From NCBI GenBank assembly GCA_029561305.1, contig JAKQJG010000268.1:1-46723 (forward strand): a stretch of DNA of 46,723 bases, written 5' to 3'. The notes under the pieces are model-generated. The model searched no databases and was not told where the DNA came from. It was given only the letters and a program-made list of their open reading frames with translations. This document shows, piece by piece, positions 15,777-46,723 of the stretch. The DNA comes from Bacteroidota bacterium. GTDB taxonomy: Bacteria > Bacteroidota > Bacteroidia > Chitinophagales > Chitinophagaceae. A program made the translations under genes and the position numbers. How positions within the stretch are numbered: the first letter of the stretch is position 1; each line of letters begins with the position of its first letter.

Positions 15777-16379
15777 ATGATCAGTACACTTTGCAATAAA
15801 ATTTTTGAACAATCTATCAGGGACTATCACAGAACCGATAATGTAGATACACCCGTCAGTAACCCGTACCCTTCCACCTCTTTGTTAGATCATTTGCTGT
15901 ACCATAAAAACTGGATAGATACGGTACAGTGGCACCTGGAAGATATCGTACGCAACCCTTCTATCGACCCGGTAGAGGGCCTGGGATTAAAAAGGCGAAT
16001 TGACGCCAGCAACCAGGAAAGAACGGATATGGTTGAATATATTGACAGCTATTTTTTAGAGCAATATAAAAATGCACCCCTTGATCCCGATGGCACTATC
16101 AATACCGAAAGTCCTGCCTGGGCTATTGACCGGCTTTCTATTTTAGCGTTAAAAATTTATCATATGCAGGCTGAAGTAAACCGTACTGACGCAAATCCGG
16201 AGCATATTAACGCCTGTTCTGATAAATTAAAAGTGCTGCTCAACCAGCAAAAAGATCTTTCAAAATCTATTGATGAATTATTGGTTGACATTTCTAAAGG
16301 AAAAAAAATTATGAAAGTGTATAAGCAGATGAAGATGTACAATGATCCGGCGCTGAACCCGGTTTTATATAAATTATAA
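15777..16379 (+). CDS. DUF4254 domain protein
   Basis: Soluble alpha-helical protein of 200 residues. The N-terminal part with SLLDHLLYHKNWIDTVQWHLEDIVR and the later GLKRRIDASNQERTDMVEYID match the DUF4254 family of Bacteroidota. Function is unknown; in this phylum it is commonly next to a family 9 glycosyltransferase, as here, which suggests an envelope polysaccharide role (inference). It follows the permease by 11 bp and is separated from the glycosyltransferase by 126 bp holding repeat-like sequence. Confidence 0.85.
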   Translation: MISTLCNKIFEQSIRDYHRTDNVDTPVSNPYPSTSLLDHLLYHKNWIDTVQWHLEDIVRNPSIDPVEGLGLKRRIDASNQERTDMVEYIDSYFLEQYKNAPLDPDGTINTESPAWAIDRLSILALKIYHMQAEVNRTDANPEHINACSDKLKVLLNQQKDLSKSIDELLVDISKGKKIMKVYKQMKMYNDPALNPVLYKL

Positions 16380-16402
16380 TATAAAGGAGTTTGGCTATAG
16401 AA

Positions 16403-16493
16403 GGTTTAGAGTGAAGGTTTAGAAGTTTAGCGGATGCTGTAAAATTGAACCCCAACTAAGCCCCTAAACCTCTGAAATTCTAAACTATAAACC
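16403..16493. repeat. imperfect inverted array of TTTAG / CTAAA words in a leader
   Basis: Left arm: GGTTTAG at 16403-16409 and 16416-16422 plus GTTTAG at 16425-16430. Right arm: CTAAACC at 16464-16470, CTAAAC at 16480-16485 and TAAACC near 16488-16493. The arms can pair in several registers. The array ends 12 bp before the glycosyltransferase start. The right arm resembles the leader at 21465-21503. Confidence 0.6.
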
Positions 16494-16505
16494 ACCCCAA
16501 TCCAC

Positions 16506-17531
16506 TTGCATTCCCCCACCCACATATTAGTGATCCGCTTTTCTGCCATGGGTGATGTTGCGATGACCGTGCCAGTTTTAAAAAATGCGCTGGATCAAAA
16601 TCCACAATTACAAATTACGGTAGTCTCCAGTGCTTTTTTTGCACCGCTTTTTGCTGGTTTAGAAAGATGCCATTTTCACCCGGCCCATCTCAAAACAATA
16701 CATAAAGGTGCAACCGGCATGTATAAACTGTTTAGGGAACTGGTAAAAAAAAATAAGTTCAATGCAGTGGCTGACCTGCACAATGTTCTGCGTTCTACTA
16801 TACTTAAAACATTTTTCACACTGGCTGGCTACAAAACAGCGGCAATTGACAAAGGCCGTGGAGAAAAGAGGTTGCTCACAAGAAAAGAAAACAAAGACTT
16901 TAAACAACTCACCAGCACGCATGAACGCTATGCCCAGGTATTGAGAAAAACCGGACTTGGTTTATTATTGAATCCGGCAACACCTGTATATCAAAAGCAG
17001 CAAATGCCAGCTTCCATTCAGCCGCTCTTTCTGCAAAACAAAAAAATGATTGGCATTGCTCCTTTTGCACAGCATAAAGAAAAAATGTACCCACTGGAAA
17101 AAATGAAAATGGTTGTGAAATTATTAGCGGTAGATAATCAAATGATTTTCTTTGGCGGTGGTGCAGAAGAAACTGCAGTATTAAAAGCATGGGCCTCCGA
17201 AATTCCCAACACGATCAATGCAGCAGGTAATTTTACTTTTACAGAAGAACTGGCTATCATCAGCAATCTGGATGTTATGATCAGCATGGACTCCGCTAAT
17301 ATGCACCTGGCTTCTTTATATACTATACCGGTAATAAGTATTTGGGGCGCCACGCATCCTTATGCTGGTTTTTATGGCTGGGGGCAAAACGAAAATAATA
17401 TTGTCTCTATTGACCTTTCCTGCCGCCCCTGCTCTGTATTTGGTAATAAACCCTGCTGGCGTGGTGATCATGCGTGTATGATGCAGATCCAGGAAAACCT
17501 CATTATTGATAAGATCAATTCACTCACGTAA
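16506..17531 (+). CDS. glycosyltransferase family 9 (heptosyltransferase-like)
   Basis: ADP-heptose:LPS heptosyltransferase-type enzyme of 341 residues. The N-terminal Rossmann half opens with ILVIRFSAMGDVAMTVPVL, diagnostic for GT9; the C-terminal half has IGIAPFAQHKEKMYPLEKM, FFGGGAEE, AISNLDVMISMDSANMHLASLYTIPVISIWGATHPYAGFYGWGQ and CRPCSVFGNKPC. The acceptor is likely an LPS core or other envelope glycan (inference). The start is a TTG at 16506, with no ATG or GTG before the conserved strand other than a GTG inside it. Its stop is immediately followed by the ATG of the next gene, so the two are translationally coupled. Confidence 0.92.
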   Translation: MHSPTHILVIRFSAMGDVAMTVPVLKNALDQNPQLQITVVSSAFFAPLFAGLERCHFHPAHLKTIHKGATGMYKLFRELVKKNKFNAVADLHNVLRSTILKTFFTLAGYKTAAIDKGRGEKRLLTRKENKDFKQLTSTHERYAQVLRKTGLGLLLNPATPVYQKQQMPASIQPLFLQNKKMIGIAPFAQHKEKMYPLEKMKMVVKLLAVDNQMIFFGGGAEETAVLKAWASEIPNTINAAGNFTFTEELAIISNLDVMISMDSANMHLASLYTIPVISIWGATHPYAGFYGWGQNENNIVSIDLSCRPCSVFGNKPCWRGDHACMMQIQENLIIDKINSLT

Positions 17532-18368
17532 ATGCTCACACGCCTCGCCCCCACTCCCAGCGGATACATTCATACAGGGAATATTTACAACTTCCTGCTC
17601 AACTGGCTTTGGGCAAGGAGCAACAATGGAAAAGTTATGCTCCGGATAGATGATGGTGATGCCACCCGGAAAAGAAAAGAATATGTTGAAGATATTTTTT
17701 ATGTGCTCGACTGGCTTGGGCTCGATTGGGATATTGGTCCCTCAGGTCCAGGCGATTTCGAGGCCAACTGGTCGCAGTTGAAACGCACTGACTTATACAA
17801 AGACATACTGGATGAACTGGTTAAAAAAAACTGTGTGTTTGCCTGCACTTGCAGCCGCAACCAGGCATGCCAGTGTGCAGAGAAAAAAGCAAACCTTCAT
17901 CAAACTAATACTGCCTGGAAAATGAAGGTGATAGAAAACAGCAGCATTCATTTCAGAGATAAGATCATGGGAAATACTGCAATTGATATACTTCCCTTTG
18001 TTATAAAAAGAAAAGATGGCTTTGCATCCTACCAGGTTTGTTCGCTGGCTGATGACAGGCATTTTGGCATTACACATATATGCCGCGGTAATGACCTGAA
18101 AGAATCAACAGCGATGCAGTTGTATATTGACCAGCAAACTGCCTTACCGTCTTTTTATCAATGTCAGTTTTGGCATCATCTGTTGATACCCGGTACCAAC
18201 GGAATAAAATTGTCGAAAAGCGCCGGTGTTTCTGCTGAAAGTATCATTAAAACTTATTCGAAAGCAGACATCTTCTCCTCTTTTGCGTCCTGGATGGGCT
18301 GGCAACATGCAGGTGAAATCACCTTGCAGGAAATGGTGCAGGCCCCTGTATTTAATATGGGTAAATAG
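17532..18368 (+). CDS. glutamyl-Q tRNA(Asp) synthetase-like (truncated GluRS paralogue)
   Basis: Class I synthetase-like protein of 278 residues holding only the catalytic half of GluRS. The HIGH-type motif is SGYIHTGN (about 10-17) and the KMSKS loop is KLSKS (226-230). A Cys cluster (C105, C107, C113, C115) lies where GluQ and GluRS bind zinc. The anticodon-binding domain is absent, as in GluQ, which glutamylates queuosine in tRNA(Asp). LRIDDGDATRKRKEYVEDIFYVLDWLGLDWD matches the family, which usually has DLD or DID at the start of this run. The ATG abuts the GT9 stop with no gap. GluQ is the best call; other acceptors are possible for GluRS-like stand-alone proteins. Confidence 0.85.
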   Translation: MLTRLAPTPSGYIHTGNIYNFLLNWLWARSNNGKVMLRIDDGDATRKRKEYVEDIFYVLDWLGLDWDIGPSGPGDFEANWSQLKRTDLYKDILDELVKKNCVFACTCSRNQACQCAEKKANLHQTNTAWKMKVIENSSIHFRDKIMGNTAIDILPFVIKRKDGFASYQVCSLADDRHFGITHICRGNDLKESTAMQLYIDQQTALPSFYQCQFWHHLLIPGTNGIKLSKSAGVSAESIIKTYSKADIFSSFASWMGWQHAGEITLQEMVQAPVFNMGK

Positions 18369-32653: not shown

Positions 32654-35600
32654 CTATCTCACCAATGAAATATTACCTGATACAACTTTTGATTTACCAT
32701 CAAGGCCGGTAATTTCAATTGCATAAATGTACACATCTATGGCTTGTTTGATTCCTCTGGCAGTTCCATCCCAGCCTGCATTCACATCATTGGTATAAAA
32801 ATTTGATCTGTCAAAAACGGTGGCGCCCTGCCGGTTCATGATCTTAAGCCTGTTTACCTTTACACTTCTTGCTGCCCTTGGGTAAAAAATATCGTTGGCC
32901 CCATCGGCATTGGGAGAAAAAGTATTAGGCATAAACAAACCACCTGCAGGATCATCATTGCTAACGGTGATCTTTACCTTATCTATTGCCGTACAGCCAT
33001 AGCTGTTTTTTGCAGTTGCGGTGTATTCAGTTGTTACCAGTGGTCTTACTGTAACAGCGTAGCCGGCATTTCTAAATATATCACCCGTTGGAGACCAAAC
33101 AACCTCATTTACATCTGCAGACACTACAGGTATCAATTCAACAGAAGCACCTGAAGTAAGTTGCAGGTCTGCTCCGGCATCAATAGTTGGTAATGCATGT
33201 ACAGTAACTGTTATGAAGCCTGTATCACTGTAACAACCAGCGGCATCTTTCCCAATTACTTTATACCTGGTAGTGGAAGCAGGCTGCGCAATGGGGGATG
33301 CGGTGTTGCTGCTGCTCAAACCGGCTGAAGGTGTCCATTCATACATTTCAGCACCGCTCACCTGTAACCGGACTCCCGTTAACCCGCAGGTGCTGGCACT
33401 ACCGGAGTAAGCAAGTGTGAAAGGTTGAGCAACCATCACGTTTATGGTATCATTTGCAGTGCAGCCATATTCATTGGTGCCCTGTACAATATAACCTGTG
33501 CTTGATACCGGGGAAACTAACGGTGAAGCACAACCAGTACAACTCATCTTTCCATCGGTTGATGACCATTGATAAGAGGATGCGCCTGTAGCAGTAAGCG
33601 TGGTAATTTCTCCTTTGCAAATACTGCCCCGGCCGCTAATATTCAAGTCGGGTGAAGCATGTATTAAAATATCTTTACTGACAATCTTTTTGCAGCCATT
33701 GCTCCCTGTAGCTGTAAGTTTCACAACGTAATTGCCAGCAGAAGAAAAAAATTGCTCAGCCGGATGCTGACCATTGGCAATATTTCCGTTTGCAAATTCC
33801 CATTGCCATGATGTAACAGCTGTCTGCATATTGTTAGAAATACCACTGAATGAAATGCCAAATGGCATACAACCTTCATCGGCAGATGAGTGAACAGATA
33901 CATCAGGTGAAAGTGCAACCCTTACGGGTACGGCTGTTGTAAAACTGTCGGTACACCCGTTTATTGTGGTCACTTTCAGAGATGGATAATACAAACCTTC
34001 TGCAATATACTGGTGCAATGGATTTTTGATGTTGTCCGCATACGTTCCATCGCCAAAACTCCAGCGATAACTTGCAATGCTGTCTGCTGACAAAGTAGTA
34101 TTAATAAAAGAAACCTGGCCGTTACTGCATGCATTGGTATCCGCAAAACTGAAACGTGCTTCAAGCTGTTTTAAACGAATGGTATCATTTCCCTGCACAG
34201 GTACACGACAGCCTTCATTATCAACCAGCATCAATTTAGGTATAAAATCACCTTCGTTATTATATTGATGTGTTAATAAAGAATCTGAATTAGTGATGGT
34301 TGAACCATCATTAAAGTCCCAGGTAAATGAAGTGGCATCGGTTGTAATTGCAGCAAAACTAACGGTGGCAGGAGCCTGGCAAAAATTTAGTGGACCATAG
34401 GTCAATGCTCCCTTAGGACCTTTTACTTCAATGGTCTTGTGTGCGGTATTGGTGCACCCCCCTCTGCCGGCTACAGTTAACGTTGCTGTATATACGCCGG
34501 GATATGAATAAAAATGGGAAGGATTATTTGCAAAAATTGCTGTGCCATAACCAAAATTCCATTGTTCGTCTGTTGCTTTGTCAGATTGGTTTGTAAAATT
34601 CACTATCAATGGAGGACAATTCCTGAATGAATCACTGATGCTGAATCTTGCTATAGGATTTTCAATTGTAATGGGATACGCCAAGGTAAATGAATCTTCA
34701 CATCCCTGCTGCAAACTCACTTTTAATCTAACCGTATAGTCACCCTCGGAACGATAAGCATGTAACGGTTGCTGAACAGCGGCAGTTGATCCATCACCAA
34801 AATCCCACTGGTAAATGGTTCCGTGCTCGTAAAAAGGGCATACAAATCGTATTGGGTTGTCAGTGCATTTAACCGAATCGAGTGTCCAGAACTGCGGAAA
34901 TACTTTTCGTGCCGTAAGGGGTTCTGCCGAAGTATATGAATCGGTGCAACCGTTGTTATCGGTAACTTTAAGACTAACAGTATAAGTGCCTCTGGCCGTG
35001 TAGGAATGGGTAAATGGAGCGGACGTAAAAGTATCTGTTTGCCCGTCTCCAAAGCTCCATTGCCAGCTTTGTATACTGCTGCCGGCACTTACCACGGAAC
35101 TGTCTGTATATAACACATCGCTGCCTGCACACACTACTGGAACGGGTATACCAAAATTTGCCTTTACGGCTTTTACCGATATATAATTTATTTTTACGAT
35201 CGAGTCCCTGCAGTTAACCTTGTTTATAGTGACTAATGAAACAGTATACTCACCTGGCGTTTCATATTCATGTGTCACGGAATTTTCCAAGGTGCTTTCA
35301 AAACTTCCATCACCAAAATACCAGATAAAACGGTTCACCTCACCATTGGCAATAGTGGAAGTAAAAGCAGCACTATTGCCTTTGCAAATAACAGAGTCGC
35401 TTGCAAAAAAGCCGGGTATTACTTTCGTGGTCATCAACCCTTTTGATTTATAACCATCGCAACCTGTAGTATTATTGAAGGTAGTGAGCGACACTATATA
35501 GGACCCGGTATCTGCATAAACATGCACAGGGTGCATTACAGTGGAAGTGTTGCCATCACCGAAATTCCATACCCAGTTGTCGGCACCCAATGAAAGGTTG

Positions 35601-37228
35601 GTGAATGAAAACTGGAAAGGATTGCCGCAATTAAAATCAAATTTCAATTTTGCTACAGACGGTTTTACATAAACAAAATCAGGTCTCAGTAATGTATCTG
35701 AGCAACCGCCGTTAAAAACAATTAGTTCAGTTGCCATATAACCCGTATCACTAAAACGATATTGGGGATGCTGATCAAATACCTGCCCGTTATCTCCAAA
35801 GATCCATTGCCATTGCGTAACCGTTCCTTGGGTGTTATCCATAAACTGCACACCCGATTGAGCGCAGGCTACCTGCACATCTGACGAAAACCCTGCTGTA
35901 GGTTTATAGCCGGTATGTATCGCATGGTCCATTGTAGTTGTATCCCTGCATCCCGATGCACCAGTGGTTACAAGACTTACGGTAAAATACCTGTCTCCGG
36001 AAAAAACATGTGAAGGGGATTGTAACGACGAAGTTCCACCATCGCCAAACTTCCATAAATAGCTGGTGATACTGTCCGAACCCGAGGACGATACACTAAA
36101 ATGTTTATTCATTCCAGTACAGCCGCTGTCAGGCAGATTATTAAAACTTACAAACGGTTTTTGTATCCTGATAAAACCGTTTTTTATTACAGAATCGATA
36201 CAACCATTGTTGTTGCGGATGATGAGCTTTACCGTAAAGTTGCCGGTATCTCTATAAATATGAACAGGATTGGAAACAGTAGAAAAAGATGTGTCGCCAA
36301 AATCCCAGGTATAGTTATTAAATAAAAGCTCCTGGTTGGTAAACTTTACTGTTGCAGGAACTGTACAAATAGTTGTAACATCTGCACTGAAGGCAGCGCT
36401 CACAGGTTTTGCCACGGTAATACTGTTGGTGACTGTATCAATACATCCAAACTCATTGGATGTCACCAGTTTTACCTGGTAAGTACCACCCGCAGGGTAA
36501 GTATAAACAGGATTGCTTGTAACAGCTGTATCGCCGTTGCCGAACAGCCATTTGTATGAAAGTCGCCCATTTCCTTGTGAAGTATTTTGAAAATAGATTG
36601 TTGTGGGAGCACAGCGGTTTGGTATAGTGTGAGTAAAATCGGCTCTTACAGAATGTACATTGATATATGCCTGCTTTACCAGTGTAAGCGCACAGCCTTC
36701 ACCGTTAATTACTTTCAGGCTTACGTTATAACTGCCGGTTTGGGAGTAGGTATGTAACGGGTTATGATCTGATGAAAAGATACCGTCGCCAAAATCCCAT
36801 TGCCATGCATTAGCAGCATTACTCCGGTCTGTAAATTGTGCAGTAACACTGTAGCAGCCACTTGTTTGAGAAGCGTTAAAATCAACCATTGGTGCTGCAA
36901 ACACCTGCACATAATTGGTTTTTGCCAGCGAATCCTGGCCTGCTGCATTTTTTACGATCAGCTTTACATTGTAGGTGCCGGGAATGAAGTAGGTAACAGA
37001 GGGATTTTGTAAGTATGATATAGTCCCGTTTCCAAGATCCCATTTCCAAAAGGTGGGATTGCCAGTTGATTCATCTGAAAAACTGGCGAGAATGGGCGCA
37101 CACCCGGAAAGATTGGTTCCTGAAAATCCAGCATCCGGCTGGGCATGCGCAACTAGTCCCCTAAGCAGCAAAATGCCACACAGGAATGATATTGCGATAT
37201 ATGATTTTAAACAGGATGTGGCTCTCAT
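32654..37228 (-). CDS. giant surface protein with 14 PKD repeats and type IX type B sorting domain
   Basis: Exported, surface-anchored protein of 1524 residues. A signal peptide (SYIAISFLCGILLLRGLVAHAQ) is followed by 14 PKD-like repeats (about 28-1195), counted from WxFG(D/N/Y) or close variants such as WDFGDG, WKFGDG and WNFGYG, about 80-90 residues apart. After them come Ig-like or SprB-like segments with YGC. The last 94 residues (from PNTFSPNADGANDIFYP) are the gliding-motility-associated C-terminal domain for type IX secretion, ending in the family-style ISLVR. The ATG at 37228 was chosen to give the signal peptide. It is probably a cell-surface adhesin or scaffold; no gld, spr or por gene is in the window. 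Confidence 0.9.
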   Translation of the reverse strand: MRATSCLKSYIAISFLCGILLLRGLVAHAQPDAGFSGTNLSGCAPILASFSDESTGNPTFWKWDLGNGTISYLQNPSVTYFIPGTYNVKLIVKNAAGQDSLAKTNYVQVFAAPMVDFNASQTSGCYSVTAQFTDRSNAANAWQWDFGDGIFSSDHNPLHTYSQTGSYNVSLKVINGEGCALTLVKQAYINVHSVRADFTHTIPNRCAPTTIYFQNTSQGNGRLSYKWLFGNGDTAVTSNPVYTYPAGGTYQVKLVTSNEFGCIDTVTNSITVAKPVSAAFSADVTTICTVPATVKFTNQELLFNNYTWDFGDTSFSTVSNPVHIYRDTGNFTVKLIIRNNNGCIDSVIKNGFIRIQKPFVSFNNLPDSGCTGMNKHFSVSSSGSDSITSYLWKFGDGGTSSLQSPSHVFSGDRYFTVSLVTTGASGCRDTTTMDHAIHTGYKPTAGFSSDVQVACAQSGVQFMDNTQGTVTQWQWIFGDNGQVFDQHPQYRFSDTGYMATELIVFNGGCSDTLLRPDFVYVKPSVAKLKFDFNCGNPFQFSFTNLSLGADNWVWNFGDGNTSTVMHPVHVYADTGSYIVSLTTFNNTTGCDGYKSKGLMTTKVIPGFFASDSVICKGNSAAFTSTIANGEVNRFIWYFGDGSFESTLENSVTHEYETPGEYTVSLVTINKVNCRDSIVKINYISVKAVKANFGIPVPVVCAGSDVLYTDSSVVSAGSSIQSWQWSFGDGQTDTFTSAPFTHSYTARGTYTVSLKVTDNNGCTDSYTSAEPLTARKVFPQFWTLDSVKCTDNPIRFVCPFYEHGTIYQWDFGDGSTAAVQQPLHAYRSEGDYTVRLKVSLQQGCEDSFTLAYPITIENPIARFSISDSFRNCPPLIVNFTNQSDKATDEQWNFGYGTAIFANNPSHFYSYPGVYTATLTVAGRGGCTNTAHKTIEVKGPKGALTYGPLNFCQAPATVSFAAITTDATSFTWDFNDGSTITNSDSLLTHQYNNEGDFIPKLMLVDNEGCRVPVQGNDTIRLKQLEARFSFADTNACSNGQVSFINTTLSADSIASYRWSFGDGTYADNIKNPLHQYIAEGLYYPSLKVTTINGCTDSFTTAVPVRVALSPDVSVHSSADEGCMPFGISFSGISNNMQTAVTSWQWEFANGNIANGQHPAEQFFSSAGNYVVKLTATGSNGCKKIVSKDILIHASPDLNISGRGSICKGEITTLTATGASSYQWSSTDGKMSCTGCASPLVSPVSSTGYIVQGTNEYGCTANDTINVMVAQPFTLAYSGSASTCGLTGVRLQVSGAEMYEWTPSAGLSSSNTASPIAQPASTTRYKVIGKDAAGCYSDTGFITVTVHALPTIDAGADLQLTSGASVELIPVVSADVNEVVWSPTGDIFRNAGYAVTVRPLVTTEYTATAKNSYGCTAIDKVKITVSNDDPAGGLFMPNTFSPNADGANDIFYPRAARSVKVNRLKIMNRQGATVFDRSNFYTNDVNAGWDGTARGIKQAIDVYIYAIEITGLDGKSKVVSGNISLVR

Positions 37229-37452
37229 TACCGTACCATTGATGGGAAAACCTTTATGGGTATTTTCCAAAACAATAAATGGAAATGCTAACTGGGAAAA
37301 GCAGAATGCAGACAGAGCCTGAAGATGGAGGCCATCGACTAGTTTCGGTTCACAACAACGCTTTCGTACCAGAAGCGTACCCTAACTAACGAAAAACCAG
37401 TGCAGTTATTATAAAAAGGGGAAATATGGCTGCAGTTTCCTATCTGGCCGTA

Positions 37453-37509: not shown

Positions 37510-40500
37510 TTATCTCACCAGCATTACGGTTCCTTTTTCAATGATTTCTCTTCCCCTGCTGTCTTTTCCTTTATATACCCATACATAGGCGCCGGCAGGT
37601 TGTTCTTTACCTTTAAAGAAGCCATTCCAGCCATCACGGAAACGGCTTGTTTGGAAAACGATTTCCCCATACCGGTTGAATACCCTGAAGTATTCAATGT
37701 TTGATCCAACATTGATTGGTTTGAAGATATCATTAATTCCGTCACCGTTTGGTGAGAAGGCATTGGGCACATAATTGGTTGGGCCGATAAACACATTTAT
37801 CCTGATGGAGTCTGTTGCTTTGCAGCCAGCTGCATTGGTAGCTGTAACACTCAACCAGTAATAATTAGTATCAATGGGCGAATACTCACCTATTCCCGGC
37901 ACCGGAACAAATATGGCTGTGGGGTTATCATCTGTTCTGTCAGACAAATTAACACCGGAAGGGTAATCCCATACATAGCTTCCGCCAGCACCTGCACCAG
38001 TGGCAGTAAGCTGATGGGCTTTATTTAATACGGCATTGGTATCATTTCCTGCAAATGCATATACCGGAGGCAGCATTTTTACGAGCACAGAATCAGACAC
38101 TGCAAAGTTGCAATTGTATTCATCCCTCACTGTTACTACAAAATAAGTATTCTCATCCTGCGGCCTTACGGTTACGGAAGTAGAATCAGCCTTGGTATCC
38201 AGCAAATTTGATGGAGACCAGGTAAAGTTAACCGTACCAGAAAGGTTACTTGCTGTAGCCTTCAATTCTGTGGTTGTATCGAAACAAATGATCACATCAT
38301 TACCGGCATCGGCTATTGGCTTACGCAGCACATTAATCGTAATATTATCCGTAAGTGTACAGATGCCCCATTTTGCCGTTACAGTATAAGTAGTGGTTTG
38401 AGTAGGTGAAGCAACAGGATTTTTTACATTATTTAAATCAAGTGATGCCGCAGGTGTATAAATAAACTCACTGGTTTCAGGATTAGTATTCGGATTCAAT
38501 GTAAGTGAGGATCCTGAACAAATCGTATCTGCAGTTCCAAGATCAAGGTACATTGTAAATACAGAGTCAACAGTGGCATTGGCAGTTGCCAAACAGCCTT
38601 TATCATCTATAACTGTCACAACATAATTTCCTTTAAGCACATCAAATGTTGGCACTGCCTGGTAACCGGTATTAGTAGGCGAATCAACCGAATACTGATA
38701 AGGCAATGTGCCCCCGGATGCGGCAGACACTATCTTGCCATCGGGATTTCCACTGCAGGTTGCAGCCTGTGTACTAAGGATGGAAGCTGTAAGCACAGCA
38801 GGTTCTGATATAGTGATCACTGAATCAATAGAACAGTTGTTGGCATCTCTTATGGAGAGTGTGTGTACACCTGCACCTACGGTACTAAACGTTTTTGAAG
38901 TACCAAAAGTACCTCCATCAATTGCATATTGATAAGGCGCAACACCCAGTGACACATTCACGGTAACAGTACCATTCTGGAGGCCATTACAGGCGGGTCT
39001 TACAATGTTCAATGAATCGATCTGTACTTTAGGATTGTTGCCAACTATAGAAGTGATGGTATTCGTACAACCGGCACTGTCAGTGATAGTAATACTGTAA
39101 GTTCCGGAAGACAGGGAAGTAAACTGGTTACCAGATTGTGGTGTTCCGGAAACTGGTGAAGTGATAACATATGTTAGTGGGGAAATGCCGGCAGTTACGT
39201 TTACCGTAATTGTTCCGTTTGGTATAGAAGCGCAGGAAGCATTCTGAATAGTAGAAGCATTTGTTAATACTCCGGGCTGATTTCCTACGTTCTGTACTGG
39301 CGAATTAAATATGCAACCAACGGCGTCCCTTACCCTTACATTGTAAGCATTGGCAGCAAGGTTACGGAACACATTATCCGCCTTATAGGAACCGCCTGCA
39401 TCAATTGAAAATACAAAAGGTACTGTACCAGTAAGCGGCTCTACTATAATTGCCCCGGTTGCAGCAGCAGCACAAGCTGAATTGACAATAGCAAAATCAG
39501 CTGTAACACCAATATCATTTCCTACCGTTACGGCTGGTGCATCGTAAGCACATCCCAGGGCATCCCTTACACGGATATTATATGTATTACTTGCTAAATT
39601 CCGGATGGTATCCAGCGGGAAATAGTTTGCCCCGCCATTGGTGGAATAGGTAAATGGTGCAATTCCAGTAGTAGGCGTTATGATAATTTTTCCTGTACTT
39701 ACTCCAGTACAGGCAGAATTAACCGTTGCAAATGTTGCACCTACACCAGGGTTGTTGCTGTTAACAGTAACGGGTGCGGTGAACTGGCAACCAACTGCAT
39801 CTCTTATTAATACTGAATATGCTCCGCCTGCCAGGTTACGAATAGTATCTAAAGGAAGATAACTTGTACCACCATCTATTGAATAACTAAATGGTGCCGT
39901 ACCGGATGATACAGCGGGTATGATCCTGCCCGTACTGGCAACAGCACATGCTGAATTTTCGGTTATAAATGTTGCTGCAACTCCGGCATTATTACCTACC
40001 GTAACCGGTGGCGCATCATACGCACAGCCTAATCCATCTCTTACACGGATTGTATAAGTATTGCCGGCAAGATTGCGGATGGTATCAAGCGGTAAATAAG
40101 TTACACCAGCATCTGTTGAATAACTAAATGGTGCAATGCCAATAGTTGGTGTGATAATGATCTGCCCTGTACTTACGCCTGTACAAGCCGAATTTACTGT
40201 TAGAAACGTAGCACCCACTCCGGGGTTATTACTACTAACAGTAACGGGTGAAGTAAATTCACAACCAACTGCATCCCGAATTAATACAGTGTATGATCCT
40301 TCGGAAAGATTACGAATTGTATCTAATGCATAAAAATTTACACCTGCATCTATTGAATAGGTGAATGGTGCAGTGCCTGCTGTTACAGAAGCAGCAATAC
40401 TACCTGTGCTTGCCGCGGTACAAGCTGAGTTAATAGTTGTAAATGTTGCAGACACACCTGGATTGCTACTAACCGTTACGGGAGGCGCATCATAAGCGCA

Positions 40501-43449
40501 TCCCAATGCATCCCTTACCCGTATAGTATAGGTATTTCCGGCAAGATTACGAATAGTATCAAGGGGTAAATAAGTTACACCAGCATCTGTTGAATAAGTA
40601 AACGGAGCTATACCTATGGTGGGAGTAATAATTATTTGCCCGGTGCTTACTCCGGCACAGGCTGAATTAACTGTAGTAATGGTGGCACCCACACCTGGGT
40701 TGTCGCTGCTTACCGTCACTGGCGAACTAAATTCACAACCGGCAGCGTCTCTTATTAATATATTATATACGCCTTCAGCCAGGTTTCTTATAGTATCAAG
40801 CGGATTGAAAATAACACCAGCATCTGTTGAATAAGTAAACGGAGCGATCCCCGAAGTAACTGTTGCAATGATCCTTCCGGTACTTGCTGCAGTACAAGCG
40901 GAATTTACGGTGGTAAAAGTGGCATTTACACCGGTACCTAAGGTAATCTCTGGATTAATGGTGGTGGAACAGCCAATGGCATCTGTGATAACGATACTAT
41001 GGAATCCGCTATCGAGATTGCGGATGGTATCTGTTAATGCTACAAAAACAGAATTGTCAAGGTTGTAATTAAATGGTCCAGCGCCAGTAATTGGTGTAAC
41101 AACAATCTGCCCGGTAGTGGCTACAGCACAGGCTGTCGGTATAGTTACAAAGGAAGCCTGTATATCCGGACCTGCACTTACAGTTAACGGCTGACTTTGG
41201 AAAAGGCAACCCACGCCATCCCTGATCTGTATAACATAGTTACCTGCAGACAGGTTTGTAGCCGTATCAATTCTTGATGTGCCAAAGAAAGGCTGGAAGG
41301 CTGCATTATTTACAGAATATTCGAAAGGAGAAACACCTGAAAAATTAGTATTGAAAATGATAGAACCTGTACTTGCGGTTGCACATGCAGTTGGGTTTAC
41401 CGTAAACGTGGCATTTACACCTGTACCGCTTATAACTGAAATATCATCCAGATTAAAAATGCAACCGATATTATCTCTTACAGTTACATCATATAAACCA
41501 GCTCCTAAATTACGGATGGTATCAAGTGCCACAAAAGTAGGGGCGGTTCCTGTATCAACCTGGTAAAAGTAAGGAGCAGTTCCTCCGCTGGGAACCAATA
41601 CAATGTGCCCGTTATCTACACCAAAACAAGATGCGTTTCTTACTGTAAAATTAGACGTGATCCCCGGATCAAAACCAACAGCCTGCGTAAACACAGAAAC
41701 ACATCCAAGATCATCTTTTACATTTACTGTATAAGTACTGTCTCCGGCGAGCCCAGTAAAAGTTGGTGAAGACTGGAATGCTGCAAAAGCCCCCCCAGGA
41801 ATAGAATAAGTAAAAGGTGCTTGCCCTGCAGACGGGACATCTGCTGTAAGAGAACCGTTTAATGCACCGAGACAGGTAGCATTTACTGACGTGCCCGAAC
41901 TTGTAAATACTGCATCGCTTAAAACAGTATGGGTGAAACTAAAAATACAAGCGGCACCATCTTGCACCAGTACAGTATGATCACCAGCGGAAAGGCCGGT
42001 AAAAGTATTCGTGGCAACAAAAACCGGTGCTGTTATATTATCAACAGCATAGGTATAAGTACCGGTTCCAGCAACACCTGTCACTGTAATAGTGCCATTC
42101 AGTGCTTCAGGACAGGAGGTATTGGTAGAAGTAGCTGTACCGGATAAAGTGGTAGGAGCAGATATTGTAACGGTAGTATCTCTAGTACAAGAGCCGGAGG
42201 TTTCAAGCACAGTTACTGTATACGTTCCAGCTGGCACAGAAAAAACAGGTGAAGGCTGATACGAACCGCCACCATCTATTGAATATACAAAATTCGGTCC
42301 TACTGGCGCAGTAACAGTAATAGTTCCGTTAGGATTGGCACCGCATTGAGCTGCTGTTGTAGTAAGTGTAATTGGAGGTACTGCACTGGCTTTATACACA
42401 GTGAAAGTATCTGTAGAATAAACAATACTGTCACTTGCAGGAAACTGGAAGGGATACTGGAAATTATAGTAATGCGTTTTTACAACATACTGGGTAGTTG
42501 AGTTTAAACATACATTATCGAATGTTACATTCAACCCATTATTTCCATCACTGGCTGTATCACCCTCTGCAACCAAATTACCTGACATATCAGTCAATTC
42601 TACTTTTTTAAACAAGGTGGGGCCCGTTTTCGGTGTGAACCTCCATGACTCATTCATTGTTGGCGAACCCCATCTTGGCGTTGTAAATGCCTCCCTGCCC
42701 GGCGCCATTATACCTTTATCCTGATCATAATTCTGCATCCCGATCATTGCATTACCGTTATTCCAGGTTGTACATATCTCTCTGCCAAATACATGAACAT
42801 CTACTAATCCTAATCCTTCGTACAATGTAATTTGGTAGGTATTATTGATCTTAGACCAGCAAGTGTTTTGAAAGCATGGCACTTTGTAAAATGTAAGCAC
42901 CCACTTTCTGTGGGGTGCAGTACCAATTACGTCATATTTAATTTGTTTTGTAGGAGAGGTATTAGGAAACTGAATGTCAATATCATGATAGGCTCCCATG
43001 ATGATGGCCCTGTCGTATGCATCTGTTGGCAATGTACCTTCCCCGTTCAATATAGTCCATTGAGCTCCTAAACCTGCCTGCGAAAGATCAAAAGAGATGA
43101 TACCATTGGTATTCACGATCAACTGGGCATAAATGATACCATAAAAAGGAAAGTCGAATGGCATTGGAATTACCGGTGTGTACAGATCATCCCTGTCAAG
43201 ATTAGTAGAAGTGCCGGGAATGGAAGGAGATACTGGTGGCCTGAAACATCCATCTCCGCCACTGGTAAGATTTACCCCATAATCATCCGTAAACGCCTTT
43301 ACATCCGGTACCTTGGTGGTCAATGTAACGCAGTTTTGGAGACAATCAATAGTGGTGTCCTTGGGACAGTTAAAGCTAAACGTGGTTTGAGCTTTAGAGG
43401 TTACGAATAAAAAGGAAATAATAAACGAAAGAAGTAGCGTTTTTTTCAT
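37510..43449 (-). CDS. giant SprB-like surface protein with 16 repeats and type IX type B sorting domain
   Basis: Exported protein of 1979 residues. A signal peptide (TLLLSFIISFLFVTSKAQ) precedes a nidogen-like N-terminal domain (about 25-330, with PFDFPFYGIIYAQLIVNTNGIISFD and YQITLYEG). Then come 16 SprB-type repeats (about 357-1625), each of the form ...C....G.I.......G..P(F/Y).YS.D.G......TIRNL..G.Y...(V/I)RD..GC. Repeats 7-12 alternate in an A-B-A-B-A-B pattern with a 474-bp period. Ig-like domains follow, then the gliding-motility C-terminal domain (about 1894-1979, from NAFSPNGDGINDIF). The start is the ATG at 43449. It probably serves adhesion or gliding at the surface; the gliding machinery is not in the window. 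Confidence 0.92.
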   Translation of the reverse strand: MKKTLLLSFIISFLFVTSKAQTTFSFNCPKDTTIDCLQNCVTLTTKVPDVKAFTDDYGVNLTSGGDGCFRPPVSPSIPGTSTNLDRDDLYTPVIPMPFDFPFYGIIYAQLIVNTNGIISFDLSQAGLGAQWTILNGEGTLPTDAYDRAIIMGAYHDIDIQFPNTSPTKQIKYDVIGTAPHRKWVLTFYKVPCFQNTCWSKINNTYQITLYEGLGLVDVHVFGREICTTWNNGNAMIGMQNYDQDKGIMAPGREAFTTPRWGSPTMNESWRFTPKTGPTLFKKVELTDMSGNLVAEGDTASDGNNGLNVTFDNVCLNSTTQYVVKTHYYNFQYPFQFPASDSIVYSTDTFTVYKASAVPPITLTTTAAQCGANPNGTITVTAPVGPNFVYSIDGGGSYQPSPVFSVPAGTYTVTVLETSGSCTRDTTVTISAPTTLSGTATSTNTSCPEALNGTITVTGVAGTGTYTYAVDNITAPVFVATNTFTGLSAGDHTVLVQDGAACIFSFTHTVLSDAVFTSSGTSVNATCLGALNGSLTADVPSAGQAPFTYSIPGGAFAAFQSSPTFTGLAGDSTYTVNVKDDLGCVSVFTQAVGFDPGITSNFTVRNASCFGVDNGHIVLVPSGGTAPYFYQVDTGTAPTFVALDTIRNLGAGLYDVTVRDNIGCIFNLDDISVISGTGVNATFTVNPTACATASTGSIIFNTNFSGVSPFEYSVNNAAFQPFFGTSRIDTATNLSAGNYVIQIRDGVGCLFQSQPLTVSAGPDIQASFVTIPTACAVATTGQIVVTPITGAGPFNYNLDNSVFVALTDTIRNLDSGFHSIVITDAIGCSTTINPEITLGTGVNATFTTVNSACTAASTGRIIATVTSGIAPFTYSTDAGVIFNPLDTIRNLAEGVYNILIRDAAGCEFSSPVTVSSDNPGVGATITTVNSACAGVSTGQIIITPTIGIAPFTYSTDAGVTYLPLDTIRNLAGNTYTIRVRDALGCAYDAPPVTVSSNPGVSATFTTINSACTAASTGSIAASVTAGTAPFTYSIDAGVNFYALDTIRNLSEGSYTVLIRDAVGCEFTSPVTVSSNNPGVGATFLTVNSACTGVSTGQIIITPTIGIAPFSYSTDAGVTYLPLDTIRNLAGNTYTIRVRDGLGCAYDAPPVTVGNNAGVAATFITENSACAVASTGRIIPAVSSGTAPFSYSIDGGTSYLPLDTIRNLAGGAYSVLIRDAVGCQFTAPVTVNSNNPGVGATFATVNSACTGVSTGKIIITPTTGIAPFTYSTNGGANYFPLDTIRNLASNTYNIRVRDALGCAYDAPAVTVGNDIGVTADFAIVNSACAAAATGAIIVEPLTGTVPFVFSIDAGGSYKADNVFRNLAANAYNVRVRDAVGCIFNSPVQNVGNQPGVLTNASTIQNASCASIPNGTITVNVTAGISPLTYVITSPVSGTPQSGNQFTSLSSGTYSITITDSAGCTNTITSIVGNNPKVQIDSLNIVRPACNGLQNGTVTVNVSLGVAPYQYAIDGGTFGTSKTFSTVGAGVHTLSIRDANNCSIDSVITISEPAVLTASILSTQAATCSGNPDGKIVSAASGGTLPYQYSVDSPTNTGYQAVPTFDVLKGNYVVTVIDDKGCLATANATVDSVFTMYLDLGTADTICSGSSLTLNPNTNPETSEFIYTPAASLDLNNVKNPVASPTQTTTYTVTAKWGICTLTDNITINVLRKPIADAGNDVIICFDTTTELKATASNLSGTVNFTWSPSNLLDTKADSTSVTVRPQDENTYFVVTVRDEYNCNFAVSDSVLVKMLPPVYAFAGNDTNAVLNKAHQLTATGAGAGGSYVWDYPSGVNLSDRTDDNPTAIFVPVPGIGEYSPIDTNYYWLSVTATNAAGCKATDSIRINVFIGPTNYVPNAFSPNGDGINDIFKPINVGSNIEYFRVFNRYGEIVFQTSRFRDGWNGFFKGKEQPAGAYVWVYKGKDSRGREIIEKGTVMLVR
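39280..40930. repeat. near-identical alternating 237-bp repeat pairs (474-bp period)
   Basis: Inside the SprB-like gene, the segment for LGCAYDAP recurs at 39539, 40013 and 40487, spaced exactly 474 bp; the segment for the other type, near 39779, 40252 and 40726, has the same period. Coding frame is kept, so the repeats expand and contract the protein in units of 158 residues (two 79-residue repeats). Confidence 0.85.
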
Positions 43450-43760: not shown

Positions 43761-44609
43761 ATGAATTCGGCAGAAAAACTACCCATTAAAGTTGCTGTTT
43801 TAGATCTATATGAAGGCTATGCTAACCAGGGCATGCGTTGTATCCGTGAAATATTGAACCAGTTTGCAGACTTTCACCACCTTAATTTAAAGGTTGAAGA
43901 ATTTGATGTAAGATTAAAGAACCAGGTGCCTGATATGAGCTTTGATGTTTTCATTTCAAGTGGTGGCCCCGGCAGTCCGCTTGAAAGTGAGGGCAGCGAT
44001 TGGGAAAAAACCTATTTCCATTGGTTGAAACAAACAGAGCATTGGAACAACAACGATGCGAATATCCAGAAAAAATATGTTTTCTTTATTTGTCATTCTT
44101 TTCAACTTGCCTGCCGTCATTATAAAACAGGACTGGTAAGCAAAAGAAAAAGTACTTCTTTTGGCGTTTTTCCCATCCACCTGCTGCACGATGGTAAAGA
44201 TGAAATAGTATTTGACAACCTGCTGGATCCATTTTATGCAGTTGACAGCCGGGATTACCAGGTAACAAAGCCCAATCATAATAAGATCAAGGAAATGGGC
44301 GGCTGCATACTGGCAATAGAAAAGGAAAGGCCCCATGTGGCACACCTCGAAAGAGCCGTGATGGCGGCCAGGTTTAATGAATATATGATCGGAACACAGT
44401 TTCATCCCGAAGCAGATGCAGTAGGTATGAGCATGTACCTGCAAACAGAAGAAAAAAAGAAAACGGTAATAGAAAACCATGGCGAGGATAAGTGGAGAAG
44501 TATGATAGAACACCTGAATGATCCGGATAAAATTCTGCATACTTACAAAAATGTGCTACCTAACTTTTTAAGGGTGGCAGTTGAAAGTATGCAACTGGTG
44601 GAAATATAA
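43761..44609 (+). CDS. class I glutamine amidotransferase-like protein
   Basis: Protein of 282 residues with the class I glutaminase fold. The triad appears complete: Cys111 in FFICHSFQLA (nucleophile elbow), and His215 and Glu217 in GTQFHPEAD. ISSGGPGSPLESEGSDW is the usual oxyanion-side loop. The C-terminal 65 residues extend past the standard domain as helices, so it is longer than a bare domain (about 190-200). The target of the ammonia or the amide is unknown. It is followed by a strong terminator, so it is not simply in an operon with the next gene, although the two are adjacent and codirectional. Confidence 0.9.
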   Translation: MNSAEKLPIKVAVLDLYEGYANQGMRCIREILNQFADFHHLNLKVEEFDVRLKNQVPDMSFDVFISSGGPGSPLESEGSDWEKTYFHWLKQTEHWNNNDANIQKKYVFFICHSFQLACRHYKTGLVSKRKSTSFGVFPIHLLHDGKDEIVFDNLLDPFYAVDSRDYQVTKPNHNKIKEMGGCILAIEKERPHVAHLERAVMAARFNEYMIGTQFHPEADAVGMSMYLQTEEKKKTVIENHGEDKWRSMIEHLNDPDKILHTYKNVLPNFLRVAVESMQLVEI

Positions 44610-44630
44610 CCCCGTAAAAATTGATTTTTA

Positions 44631-44657
44631 AAAAGCTGCTTTACTGCAGCTTTTTTT
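44631..44657 (+). terminator. intrinsic terminator after the amidotransferase gene
   Basis: A nine-base stem (AAAAGCTGC 44631-44639 with GCAGCTTTT 44646-44654) around a 6-nt loop, running into a T7 tract that ends at 44657. Confidence 0.85.
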
Positions 44658-44701
44658 ATTGGATTTAAAAAGAACAGGTTGATTAAATATCCCTATTTTT
44701 A

Positions 44702-44730
44702 GTATTGTTATTTATTCGAAAAAACAATAC
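44702..44730. promoter_or_regulatory. inverted repeat directly before the ATP-grasp-like start codon
   Basis: GTATTGTT (44702-44709) and AACAATAC (44723-44730) are perfect inverted repeats with a 13-bp spacer, ending 3 bp before the ATG at 44734. It could be an operator or an RNA hairpin covering the initiation region. Confidence 0.4.
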
Positions 44731-44733
44731 GCC

Positions 44734-45924
44734 ATGCAAAAAGAACTCAGGGAGGCATTTAATAAAAATTTCAGTGATGAAAAATATGCGGCATACGTAG
44801 AAAGAATTGAGAACCTGCATCCGGGATCCCTTGATTTCAGGAACGCAGAAACACCCATTTTTGTGCCGAAAGACTTTACACAAAAAATGCTCGATGCCTG
44901 CGAGGATATCATCGATGTGATTGTACAACCCGGTTTTTTGTCCCTAACAGAAAGGGCTATCCCAAAAGACATCGTGGTACAAAATGAAACAGCTTACTCA
45001 GACTTCATCGCGTTTGATTTTGGGGTTTGTGAAAATGAAAAAGGGGAACTGGAGCCTCAGTTAATAGAAATGCAGGGCTTCCCTACCCTTTTTGCTTTCC
45101 AGGTATTTCACACCAGGTTTACAAGAGAATATGCTGAAGTGCCCTCTTCGCATGATGCCTACTTAAACAATTATAATGAAGAAACGTACCTGCAATTATT
45201 AAAAGAGATCATTATTGGTGATGAAAATCCGGAAAATGTGATACTGCTGGAAATTTATCCCGAACTGCAAAAAACAAGGATCGATTTTTATTGTACTGAA
45301 AACACCCTGGGTTTAAAAACGGTTTGTCTTACCAAACTCATACCAGAAGGGAATAAGCTATTTTATGAAAACAACGGCCGGAAAATTCAAGTAAAGAGAA
45401 TTTATAACCGGTTGATATTTGACGACCTGCATCAACAAAAAGACCTGGGAAATATCATTGATTTTAAACATCCCTGGGAAGTAGAATGGGTGTCTCATCC
45501 CAATTGGTTTTACAGGATCAGTAAGTTTACTTTGCCATTGATCAATAACCGCTATGTACCAAAAACTGTTTTTTTAAACGAGTTAAAAGAAATACCTGCT
45601 GACCTGGAAAACTATGTATTAAAGCCACTGTTCTCCTTTGCAGGTATGGGTGTGGTAATTGATGTGACCAAAGATGATATTGAAAAAGTGAAAGACCCGG
45701 AAAACTGGATATTGCAGCGGAAAGTAAAATATGCTGACGTGATACAAACTCCGGACATTCCTGCCAAAGCAGAGATCAGGTTGTTTTACTTCTGGAAAAA
45801 AGGATGGGCCAGACCCGTAGGTACACATAACCTGTCACGATTAAGCAAAGGAAAAATGATCGGTACCCGGTACAACAAAGACAAAGAATGGGTAGGTGGA
45901 ACCGTATCATTTTTTGAAAAATAA
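44734..45924 (+). CDS. permuted ATP-grasp-like protein (carboxylate-amine ligase type)
   Basis: Soluble protein of 396 residues. The fold looks like a circularly permuted ATP-grasp of the glutathionylspermidine synthase-like group: FIAFDFGVCENEKGELEPQLIEMQGFPTLFAFQ matches the substrate-side metal site with its conserved E.Q and F, and LENYVLKPLFSFAGMGVVIDV is the ATP-binding lysine and glycine-rich loop, followed by WILQRKV and AEIRLFYFW, typical of the nucleotide- and metal-binding half. Such enzymes couple ATP to an amide or peptide bond. Its substrates are unknown. The ATG at 44734 is right after an inverted repeat; the CHAD-like gene begins 10 bp after its stop. Confidence 0.75.
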   Translation: MQKELREAFNKNFSDEKYAAYVERIENLHPGSLDFRNAETPIFVPKDFTQKMLDACEDIIDVIVQPGFLSLTERAIPKDIVVQNETAYSDFIAFDFGVCENEKGELEPQLIEMQGFPTLFAFQVFHTRFTREYAEVPSSHDAYLNNYNEETYLQLLKEIIIGDENPENVILLEIYPELQKTRIDFYCTENTLGLKTVCLTKLIPEGNKLFYENNGRKIQVKRIYNRLIFDDLHQQKDLGNIIDFKHPWEVEWVSHPNWFYRISKFTLPLINNRYVPKTVFLNELKEIPADLENYVLKPLFSFAGMGVVIDVTKDDIEKVKDPENWILQRKVKYADVIQTPDIPAKAEIRLFYFWKKGWARPVGTHNLSRLSKGKMIGTRYNKDKEWVGGTVSFFEK

Positions 45925-45934
45925 AAAATATATT

Positions 45935-46723
45935 ATGCAGAAAGGAGCAGCACGTTTTAATTTTTTTCTTGGTGAGTTAGAAACCCTGATCGCCAAAGCG
46001 GATACACAAAAGAACCCGGCATTATTTCTTTACAGGAACAATGCCCGTACACCGCTGTTTATGCTGGAAGGTCTGTGTAAACTCTATGAAGAACTGCACA
46101 ACAAAAAAAAGTTTGGCAAGCTAAAAGAACATTTTAAGTTGCTGGAAGATGGTCTCGGCGCTATTGACTATTATGATGCAATTGCAAAAAACTTATCGGC
46201 CAACAAAAAAATATCCAAATCCATTATACAGTACCTGCAGGCCCAAACAAGGGAAAAGATACAGCACCTGAATGATGTACTGGCGGATAAAAAATGGGTG
46301 GACAGCAACAACGAACGCATCACAAAAATAAAAAAGAAAGTAGAGGACGCCGGTTGGATGGACGAGGAAAAAGAAACCACAGCAATTCATCTGTTTTATA
46401 ATCAATCCATAGAAGAAATTATCGAATTCACCCACAGCACGGCTTATCACTTTGACAATATGGAGGAAGATGTGCATGAATTAAGAAGAAAACTCCGTTG
46501 GTTAAGTATCTATCCCAGGGCATTGCAGGGCGCTATACAACTGGCTGGCAATAATAGAAAGCAAAAAAATCTTGCGAAATACCAGACCAAAGAAATATTA
46601 ACTTCTCCATTTAATACCATGCCGGATGCAGGTGACTGTAAACACTTTTTGCTGCTGAACAAGGATCGCTTTTATGCCCTCAGCTGGCTTATAGACTCAT
46701 TGGGCAAATTAAAAGACAGCGGC
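45935..46723 (+). CDS. CHAD-like helical protein (partial, runs past window end)
   Basis: An open frame of 263 codons continues to the last base, so the C-terminus is missing. The start ATG at 45935 is 10 bp after the preceding stop. The protein is all-helical and rich in Lys and Glu. The motif LYRNNARTPLFMLEGL (about 32-47) and VHELRRKLRWLSIY (about 180-193) resemble the two repeated basic helices of CHAD domains, which bind polyphosphate in other systems; a D-containing turn (LGAIDYYD) follows the first one in the expected place. The first copy lacks the usual His, so the assignment is tentative. It is probably cotranscribed with the ATP-grasp-like gene. Confidence 0.65.
   Translation, partial: MQKGAARFNFFLGELETLIAKADTQKNPALFLYRNNARTPLFMLEGLCKLYEELHNKKKFGKLKEHFKLLEDGLGAIDYYDAIAKNLSANKKISKSIIQYLQAQTREKIQHLNDVLADKKWVDSNNERITKIKKKVEDAGWMDEEKETTAIHLFYNQSIEEIIEFTHSTAYHFDNMEEDVHELRRKLRWLSIYPRALQGAIQLAGNNRKQKNLAKYQTKEILTSPFNTMPDAGDCKHFLLLNKDRFYALSWLIDSLGKLKDSG

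Follow-up and report, generated by a model that had tools for sequence, protein, structure and literature searches.

The right-hand end of a 46,723-nucleotide contig from a Bacteroidota genome (GenBank assembly GCA_029561305.1, contig JAKQJG010000268.1) carries three adjacent genes on the forward strand, which encode a class I glutamine-amidotransferase-fold hydrolase (GAT; positions 43761–44609, 282 amino acids), a circularly permuted ATP-grasp ligase (44734–45924, 396 amino acids) and a CHAD-fold protein (45935–46723). The window that was analyzed is this entire contig, C207, one of 443 in the genome. Because the third gene runs off the contig end, it is incomplete and supplies only the first 263 residues of its product; its start is most likely the ATG at 45935, 10 nucleotides past the ligase stop. 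The frames are present as placed in an initial annotation of this DNA, which had regarded the three genes as one candidate system that could make an amide- or peptide-linked small molecule, with the CHAD-like part binding a polyanion. Analysis of relatives suggests a different membership. The GAT and the permuted ligase appear, with roughly even chances in our estimate, to be two of four enzymes in one non-ribosomal pathway, together with a carboxylate-amine ligase of the GCS2 family and an R2K-like ATP-grasp ligase, and the CHAD protein is a branch-specific neighbor.

The GAT matches the Pfam family GATase (PF00117) with an E value of 7.3e-8 and 32.7 bits, against a cut-off of 22.8, and the same family is matched by all 15 aligned GAT members (E <= 0.001), for which no peptidase family was listed at that threshold. 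The catalytic triad named in the initial annotation (Cys111, His215 and Glu217) proved exact in its numbering and is kept in 85 of 85 relatives. In class I enzymes the nucleophile elbow reads GxCxGxQ. The GAT lacks the full elbow: its nucleophile region reads FICHSFQ and retains no more of the pattern than the Cys and, four positions later, the Gln (Q115, in 84 of 85 relatives). The closest NCBIfam models are generic "glutamine amidotransferase" entries matched at scores far under their cut-offs, so that the protein could cleave gamma-glutamyl peptides, for which plant gamma-glutamyl peptidases of the GGP type are a precedent, or could equally be a glutaminase. A sequence search of the PDB with the GAT gave no real match, and its family profile retrieved, besides one chance match, a weak hit to homoserine O-succinyltransferase (E 0.0012), whose Pfam family was also matched by 3 of the 15 members. 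These weak matches were taken as a sign of shared fold.

Neither the ligase nor the CHAD-like frame had a useful sequence match, and their folds were therefore examined by structure prediction. With the ligase, nothing in Pfam scored over its cut-off, and no real match was found by sequence in the PDB, glutathione synthetases included. The predicted structure (pLDDT 89.8) matched 3n6x, yeast and human glutathione synthetase and YgiC in Foldseek, with E values down to 2.9e-15. In VIA-align, the first 25 matches had Z scores of 19.3–25.4 over 314–370 residues, followed by one at 12.4 and others below 8; the top range comprises YgiC, YjfC, glutathionylspermidine synthetase (GspS), and trypanothione and glutathione synthetases. 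By its model, the protein is a circularly permuted ATP-grasp ligase with a full-length fold of the glutathione synthetase/GspS/YgiC group, which bears out the earlier call of an ATP-grasp-like ligase.

Eight ligase residues (D95, E112, Q114, K264, K297, E347, R349 and R369) are invariant across the 110 sequences compared. Their setting departs from that of solved relatives. In the loop that contains K297, SFAG replaces SREG, in a register set by a weak alignment to YgiC (E 0.92), and the position of the Glu is occupied by Ala (100 sequences) or Ser (10). Relative to the RxD ... ExN residues given for Cp1B in the available text of PMC12568646, E112 and D95 would take the places of the Glu and the Asp, Q114 would stand for the Asn, and the Arg of RxD is not among the residues listed at position 93, two before D95; this register was set by eye on the model's strand pair (91–100 and 106–114). 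The SFAG loop, with the apparent Gln for Asn and the apparent lack of the RxD Arg, sets the protein apart as a branch of its own within the permuted group. One distant genome encodes the ligase within a single 867-residue frame (locus L125, 6637–9240), behind a membrane part that by eye resembles a sodium:solute symporter.

For the third protein, no match to the Pfam CHAD family (PF05235) at E <= 1 was obtained with the window fragment or with its relatives in loci L039, L032, L103 and L048. The full-length relative in L039, a locus of Ferruginibacter paludis, was modeled with a pLDDT of 94.0, and the model matched the CHAD domains 6qv7, 6qva, 3e0s, 6rn5 and 6qv5 at Z 14.7–16.1, ygiF at 9.0 and the first non-CHAD structure at 5.2. 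On the basis of this model the third gene encodes a CHAD protein with the two four-helix-bundle fold, in agreement with what had been read from the fragment. R38, H181, R184, R185 and R188 are kept in 24 of 24 sequences and K260 in 23 of 24. H181, R184 and R188 spell HxxRxxxR in all 24, the spacing of the polyphosphate-binding residues His253, Arg256 and Arg260 of CtCHAD according to the available text of PMC6537752. The protein shares the fold and an HxxRxxxR motif with the CHAD domains treated in that source; it differs from them in having the motif in its second half (none was recognized by eye around R38, in the first half) and in its lack of a Pfam match.

The gene neighborhood was compared across 72 ligase loci, a sample that is biased to close relatives and in which locus length is limited. 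The GAT gene is found upstream of the ligase gene and on the same strand in 60 of these loci, with a gap of less than 300 bp in 51 of the 60; the other 12 consist of 3 without upstream DNA and 9 without a GAT. Among 30 short loci from genomes of the same family, 15 show the upstream GAT within the available DNA. The strong terminator that the initial annotation had invoked to split off the first gene exists as a terminator-like hairpin (44630–44657, forward strand; 10 pairs, a loop of 6 and a T tail) between the GAT and ligase genes, but these genes stay together in many species. The 136-nucleotide region holding the hairpin has a z score of -2.67, and the hairpin is absent from the list produced by a consensus terminator scan.

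In many relatives, the operon reads ATP-grasp (317 amino acids), GCS2 carboxylate-amine ligase, GAT and permuted ATP-grasp. All four genes are seen in 16 of the 72 loci, 8 of which are from Ferruginibacter and have a divergent esterase gene upstream. GCS2 is seen in 23 loci in total, and pairs of GAT and ligase without a nearby GCS2 are common. The nearest named loci to that of the window are from Ferruginibacter metagenome-assembled genomes, with a ligase identity of 79%. In the genome of the window itself, the R2K-like 317-residue protein and GCS2 are encoded side by side on contig C434, with a divergent esterase, and the GAT and the permuted ligase on C207; for this reason, the operon is counted as split. 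It is these two further ligases on C434, instead of the CHAD protein, that complete the set which the initial annotation had drawn from the GAT, ATP-grasp and CHAD genes.

The GCS2 assignment is strong in sequence: the copy in L039, which is 89% identical to that of the window genome, matches PF04107 at E 7.2e-60, the family profile matches YbdK (1r8g) at E 1.5e-56, and G12, E14 and E16 of the GhExE signature are kept in 45 of 45 sequences. The 317-residue protein matches R2K_2 weakly (best E 0.0076); R2K_2 was found for 8 of 10 members and R2K_3 for 3 of 10, the L039 copy scored 14.5 bits against an R2K cut-off of 26.2, and a PDB search with the family profile gave no real match. Its E246 is kept in 50 of 50 sequences and its D258 and N261 in 49 of 50. 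With catalytic residues kept in all four families, all four look like working enzymes at the level of sequence. Genes for alpha/beta-hydrolases lie upstream of the 317-residue gene in 35 of 52 loci (22 of one type, 19 of the other, 6 with both); 14 loci have neither type and 3 have too little DNA. Near the pair of GAT and ligase, an amidohydrolase gene occurs in 17 of the 72 loci and a cupin gene in 23. In distant families (L137, L142, L144, L145, L146 and L153), the ligase directly adjoins an amidohydrolase related to the one in Chitinophagaceae, and this enzyme may be a further partner.

To place the set in the phylum, the four families were sought in 247 genomes, with weak fragments left out and with E <= 1e-30 required for GCS2 and GAT. 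The ligase is present in 73 genomes (74 in the raw tally), the 317-residue protein in 86, GCS2 in 79 and the GAT in 59, and 41 genomes have all four. The most complete gene order, R2K-GCS2-GAT-ligase, occurs in 24 genomes, R2K-GCS2-ligase in 14 and R2K-x-GAT, with another gene in the middle, in 13. GAT and ligase lie within 5 kb of each other in 33 of the 46 genomes with both, and every pair of set genes within that distance is on one strand (for GAT and ligase, 33 of 33). Joint presence was judged inside the 12 families in which presence of the ligase is mixed (86 genomes), which reduces the effect of kinship. Here, presence of the ligase agrees with that of the R2K-like protein in 83 genomes, of GCS2 in 82 and of the GAT in 81. 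Linkage of the four genes in one order is thus seen in many relatives, their presence and absence tend to coincide, and their catalytic residues are retained. A set that is mostly kept or lost as a unit and has intact catalytic residues offers a strong lead to a metabolite conserved among environmental Bacteroidota.

A simple model would suggest that this set of three ligases and one hydrolase probably builds a small, glutathione-like gamma-glutamyl peptide or amide, and the earlier guess of a pathway that makes amide or peptide bonds was right in that respect. Enzymes of the GCS2 family make a gamma-glutamyl amide bond, and ligases similar to glutathione synthetase extend at a carboxyl. As in the making of gamma-glutamylcysteine, GCS2 would activate the gamma-carboxyl of glutamate and couple it with an amino acid or an amine. 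The permuted ligase would then phosphorylate a carboxyl of this product and add a second amine, either an amino acid or a polyamine, in a step modeled on the synthesis of glutathione, glutathionylspermidine and YgiC-type products; YgiC and YjfC are termed peptidylpolyamine synthetases in the available text of PMC12568646. The R2K-like ligase may add a third unit or prepare one of the building blocks. Finally, hydrolysis of a gamma-glutamyl (or amide) bond by the GAT would either detach the finished product from a gamma-glutamyl group that had served as carrier or serve to recycle the product. A small gamma-glutamyl peptide, whole or trimmed, would result, and the steps may follow this order.

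Of 147 species sampled from the family, 109 carry the ligase, which argues for a metabolite of general use and against a rare antibiotic. BshC, an enzyme of bacillithiol synthesis, is present in 242 of the 247 phylum genomes (E <= 1e-20), and 2 of the 5 genomes without it (G251 and G377) carry the ligase. A role of the product as the missing main thiol is disfavored by this distribution. More generally, and more tentatively than the existence of the pathway, it is possible that an undescribed small molecule is conserved across much of Bacteroidota, in the form of a gamma-glutamyl tripeptide-like amide or polyamine conjugate, and that it serves as a second general metabolite in addition to bacillithiol. 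It would be built by GCS2, the R2K-like ligase and a glutathione-synthetase-like ligase whose active site is altered; a hydrolase that can be exchanged, either the GAT or a peptidase of family M29, would trim it. Since the set names enzymes and a likely chemistry, the product of these ligases becomes a directly testable question.

Exchanges of individual genes bear on the role of the GAT. At two loci, a gene for an M29 peptidase (E 2.4e-14 and 4.7e-15) occupies the GAT slot between GCS2 and the ligase. Conversely, 13 genomes without this ligase family keep the 317-residue gene and the GAT close together; a different and longer ATP-grasp-like protein, of 452–474 residues, takes the middle place in the four such loci in which the middle gene was resolved (L155, L156, L157 and L161, of seven), and of three tested against Pfam CP_ATPgrasp_2, one scored over the cut-off and two under it. 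The exchange of ligase for ligase and of hydrolase for hydrolase fits a bond-cleaving role of the GAT in the pathway. Several observations weigh against the four-enzyme pathway with a cleaving GAT. The GAT is missing from 27 of the 73 ligase-bearing genomes and occurs in just 10 of the 32 genomes from families that always have the ligase; GCS2 is missing from all five sampled genomes of one family (f2), although four of them have the other three genes; and scattered single genes of the set are frequent. Replacement by M29 is seen at two loci only. Among the 14 genomes with the order R2K-GCS2-ligase, a GAT is encoded elsewhere in 10 and M29 fills the slot in 2, which leaves 2 with neither, so that a lost GAT slot mostly means a moved GAT. 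Given the prevalence of BshC, these bacteria do not depend on the product as their sole small thiol, and in most of them it does not replace bacillithiol. In addition, the altered loop and strand residues suggest that the chemistry, substrate or metal binding of the ligase may differ from those of its nearest solved relatives.

In an alternative that we hold to be somewhat unlikely, the GAT is a true glutaminase and ammonia from glutamine is passed to the permuted ligase or to GCS2 to yield a peptide amide, for which the amidation step of lipid II and glutathione amide offer parallels. The GAT keeps an oxyanion-type motif, SGGPGSP, which includes the GPG motif of true glutaminases and fits an ammonia donor equally well; the conservation of Q115, the uniform GATase matches with no peptidase family listed and the proximity of GAT and ligase in genomes with both point the same way. 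The 10 clusters that keep a GAT elsewhere in the genome agree with an ammonia donor as they do with a bond-cleaving enzyme. The 27 ligase genomes without a GAT match are harder to accommodate, and in 2 of them the slot is filled by M29, which could stand in for an ammonia donor only if the pathway drew on free ammonia; two such cases are few. It is less probable again, and on balance unlikely, that the enzymes attach short peptides as tags to proteins or another polymer and that the GAT or M29 removes the tag. ATP-grasp ligases of the R2K clade have been proposed as protein modifiers in the available text of PMC4431377, and pairs of ligase and peptidase would suit the writing and erasing of a mark. 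However, the permuted ligase has its closest characterized relatives among enzymes that make small molecules, as judged from the fold comparison and the available text of PMC12568646, and no gene for a precursor or target stood out among the neighbors, a weak argument given that frames of at least 70 amino acids were read and unlabeled neighbors were left unclustered.

A third alternative, which we consider quite improbable, would make the CHAD protein integral: it would bind polyphosphate and place the ligases on granules, or the pathway would decorate polyphosphate-associated material. The conserved HxxRxxxR with the CtCHAD spacing is consistent with such a role, as is the position of the CHAD gene, which is seen in 24 of the 72 loci and in all 24 lies directly downstream of the ligase on the same strand. 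In the broader sample of the family, however, the ligase occurs in 109 of 147 genomes and the CHAD gene in only 9, so most ligase carriers do without it. In 3 of the 9 it adjoins the ligase, and these are the three genomes drawn from the genus of the window; in 4 it lies on another contig, and 2 have no ligase match. In 6 of its 9 carriers the CHAD gene is thus not beside the ligase, which places the polyanion-binding step that the initial annotation had assigned to it outside the common pathway, and GAT, ligase and CHAD as a functional set were rejected on the same counts. Conserved proximity, which that annotation had proposed as a check, thus holds for GAT and ligase in many relatives, but for CHAD in one branch. 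No common partner was apparent by eye among the CHAD neighbors outside the ligase cluster. The CHAD protein is a branch-specific neighbor that may tie expression to polyphosphate, and a real association, of the GAT with three ligases, is thereby separated from a lineage-specific one that would mislead. That all these genes are chance neighbors with no common function is highly improbable: the hairpin that parts GAT from ligase in the window and the division of the cluster over two contigs would fit chance, but the fixed order, the single strand and the joint presence across the phylum, above all the agreement within mixed families (81–83 of 86), speak strongly against it.

The proposed four-enzyme pathway resembles several known systems without coinciding with any of them. 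Glutathione synthesis with the eukaryotic-type permuted glutathione synthetase likewise combines a GCS-type ligase with a permuted ATP-grasp enzyme of the same fold; in contrast, the present set has a second ATP-grasp ligase and a GAT, its permuted ligase shows SFAG for SREG and apparently ExQ for ExN, and this ligase has no match to glutathione synthetases at the sequence level. Glutathionylspermidine synthetase/amidase, YgiC and YjfC share the fold group (Z 22.6–25.4), and here too a ligase is combined with an enzyme that cuts amides. The amidase domain of glutathionylspermidine synthetase/amidase is of the CHAP type, whereas the hydrolase here has the class I GAT fold or belongs to M29, the enzymes are encoded by separate genes, and GCS2 and R2K-like ligases are added. 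Known carboxylate-amine ligases beside a GAT-like thiol peptidase belong to another ligase family, in proteobacteria, and the main text of the paper that treats them does not use the term ATP-grasp. Multi-ligase non-ribosomal peptide clusters with a peptidase are an already known kind. No description of the R2K-GCS2-GAT-ligase set was found in the open-access literature searched, and an earlier description is possible; the likeliest place for one is the 2009 article of Iyer and others in Mol BioSyst. Ligases of the R2K clade in operons with other peptide ligases are treated in the available text of PMC4431377, to which the 317-residue protein relates through an R2K_2 match under the Pfam cut-off. 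That text also refers to an earlier observation (its reference 16) of ATP-grasp enzymes linked with COOH-NH2 ligases of the GCS2 superfamily; the present set is not named in it, and the terms Bacteroidetes and glutamine amidotransferase are absent from its main text.

On C207, the GAT, ligase and CHAD genes stand beside a surface protein with SprB repeats, and no Bacteroidetes-type promoter pattern was found near the three genes, the count of the pattern in the window being not above chance. The neighboring protein (37510–43449, reverse strand) has 1979 residues and combines SprB repeats with a CHU_C type IX secretion domain, and a DNA array with a 474-base period lies at 39524–40740, within the span of its gene. 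It adjoins a 1538-residue protein of PKD domains with a C-terminal CHU_C domain (32654–37270, reverse strand). A SprB-type neighbor beside the GAT of locus L038 was considered and rejected: the long neighbor there has no listed match to the 1979-residue protein and matches the 1538-residue PKD protein only weakly. Further upstream in the window, at 15777–18368 on the forward strand, a DUF4254 protein, a glycosyltransferase family 9 protein and a 278-residue tRNA-synt_1c protein of the Glu/Gln type are encoded in a row.

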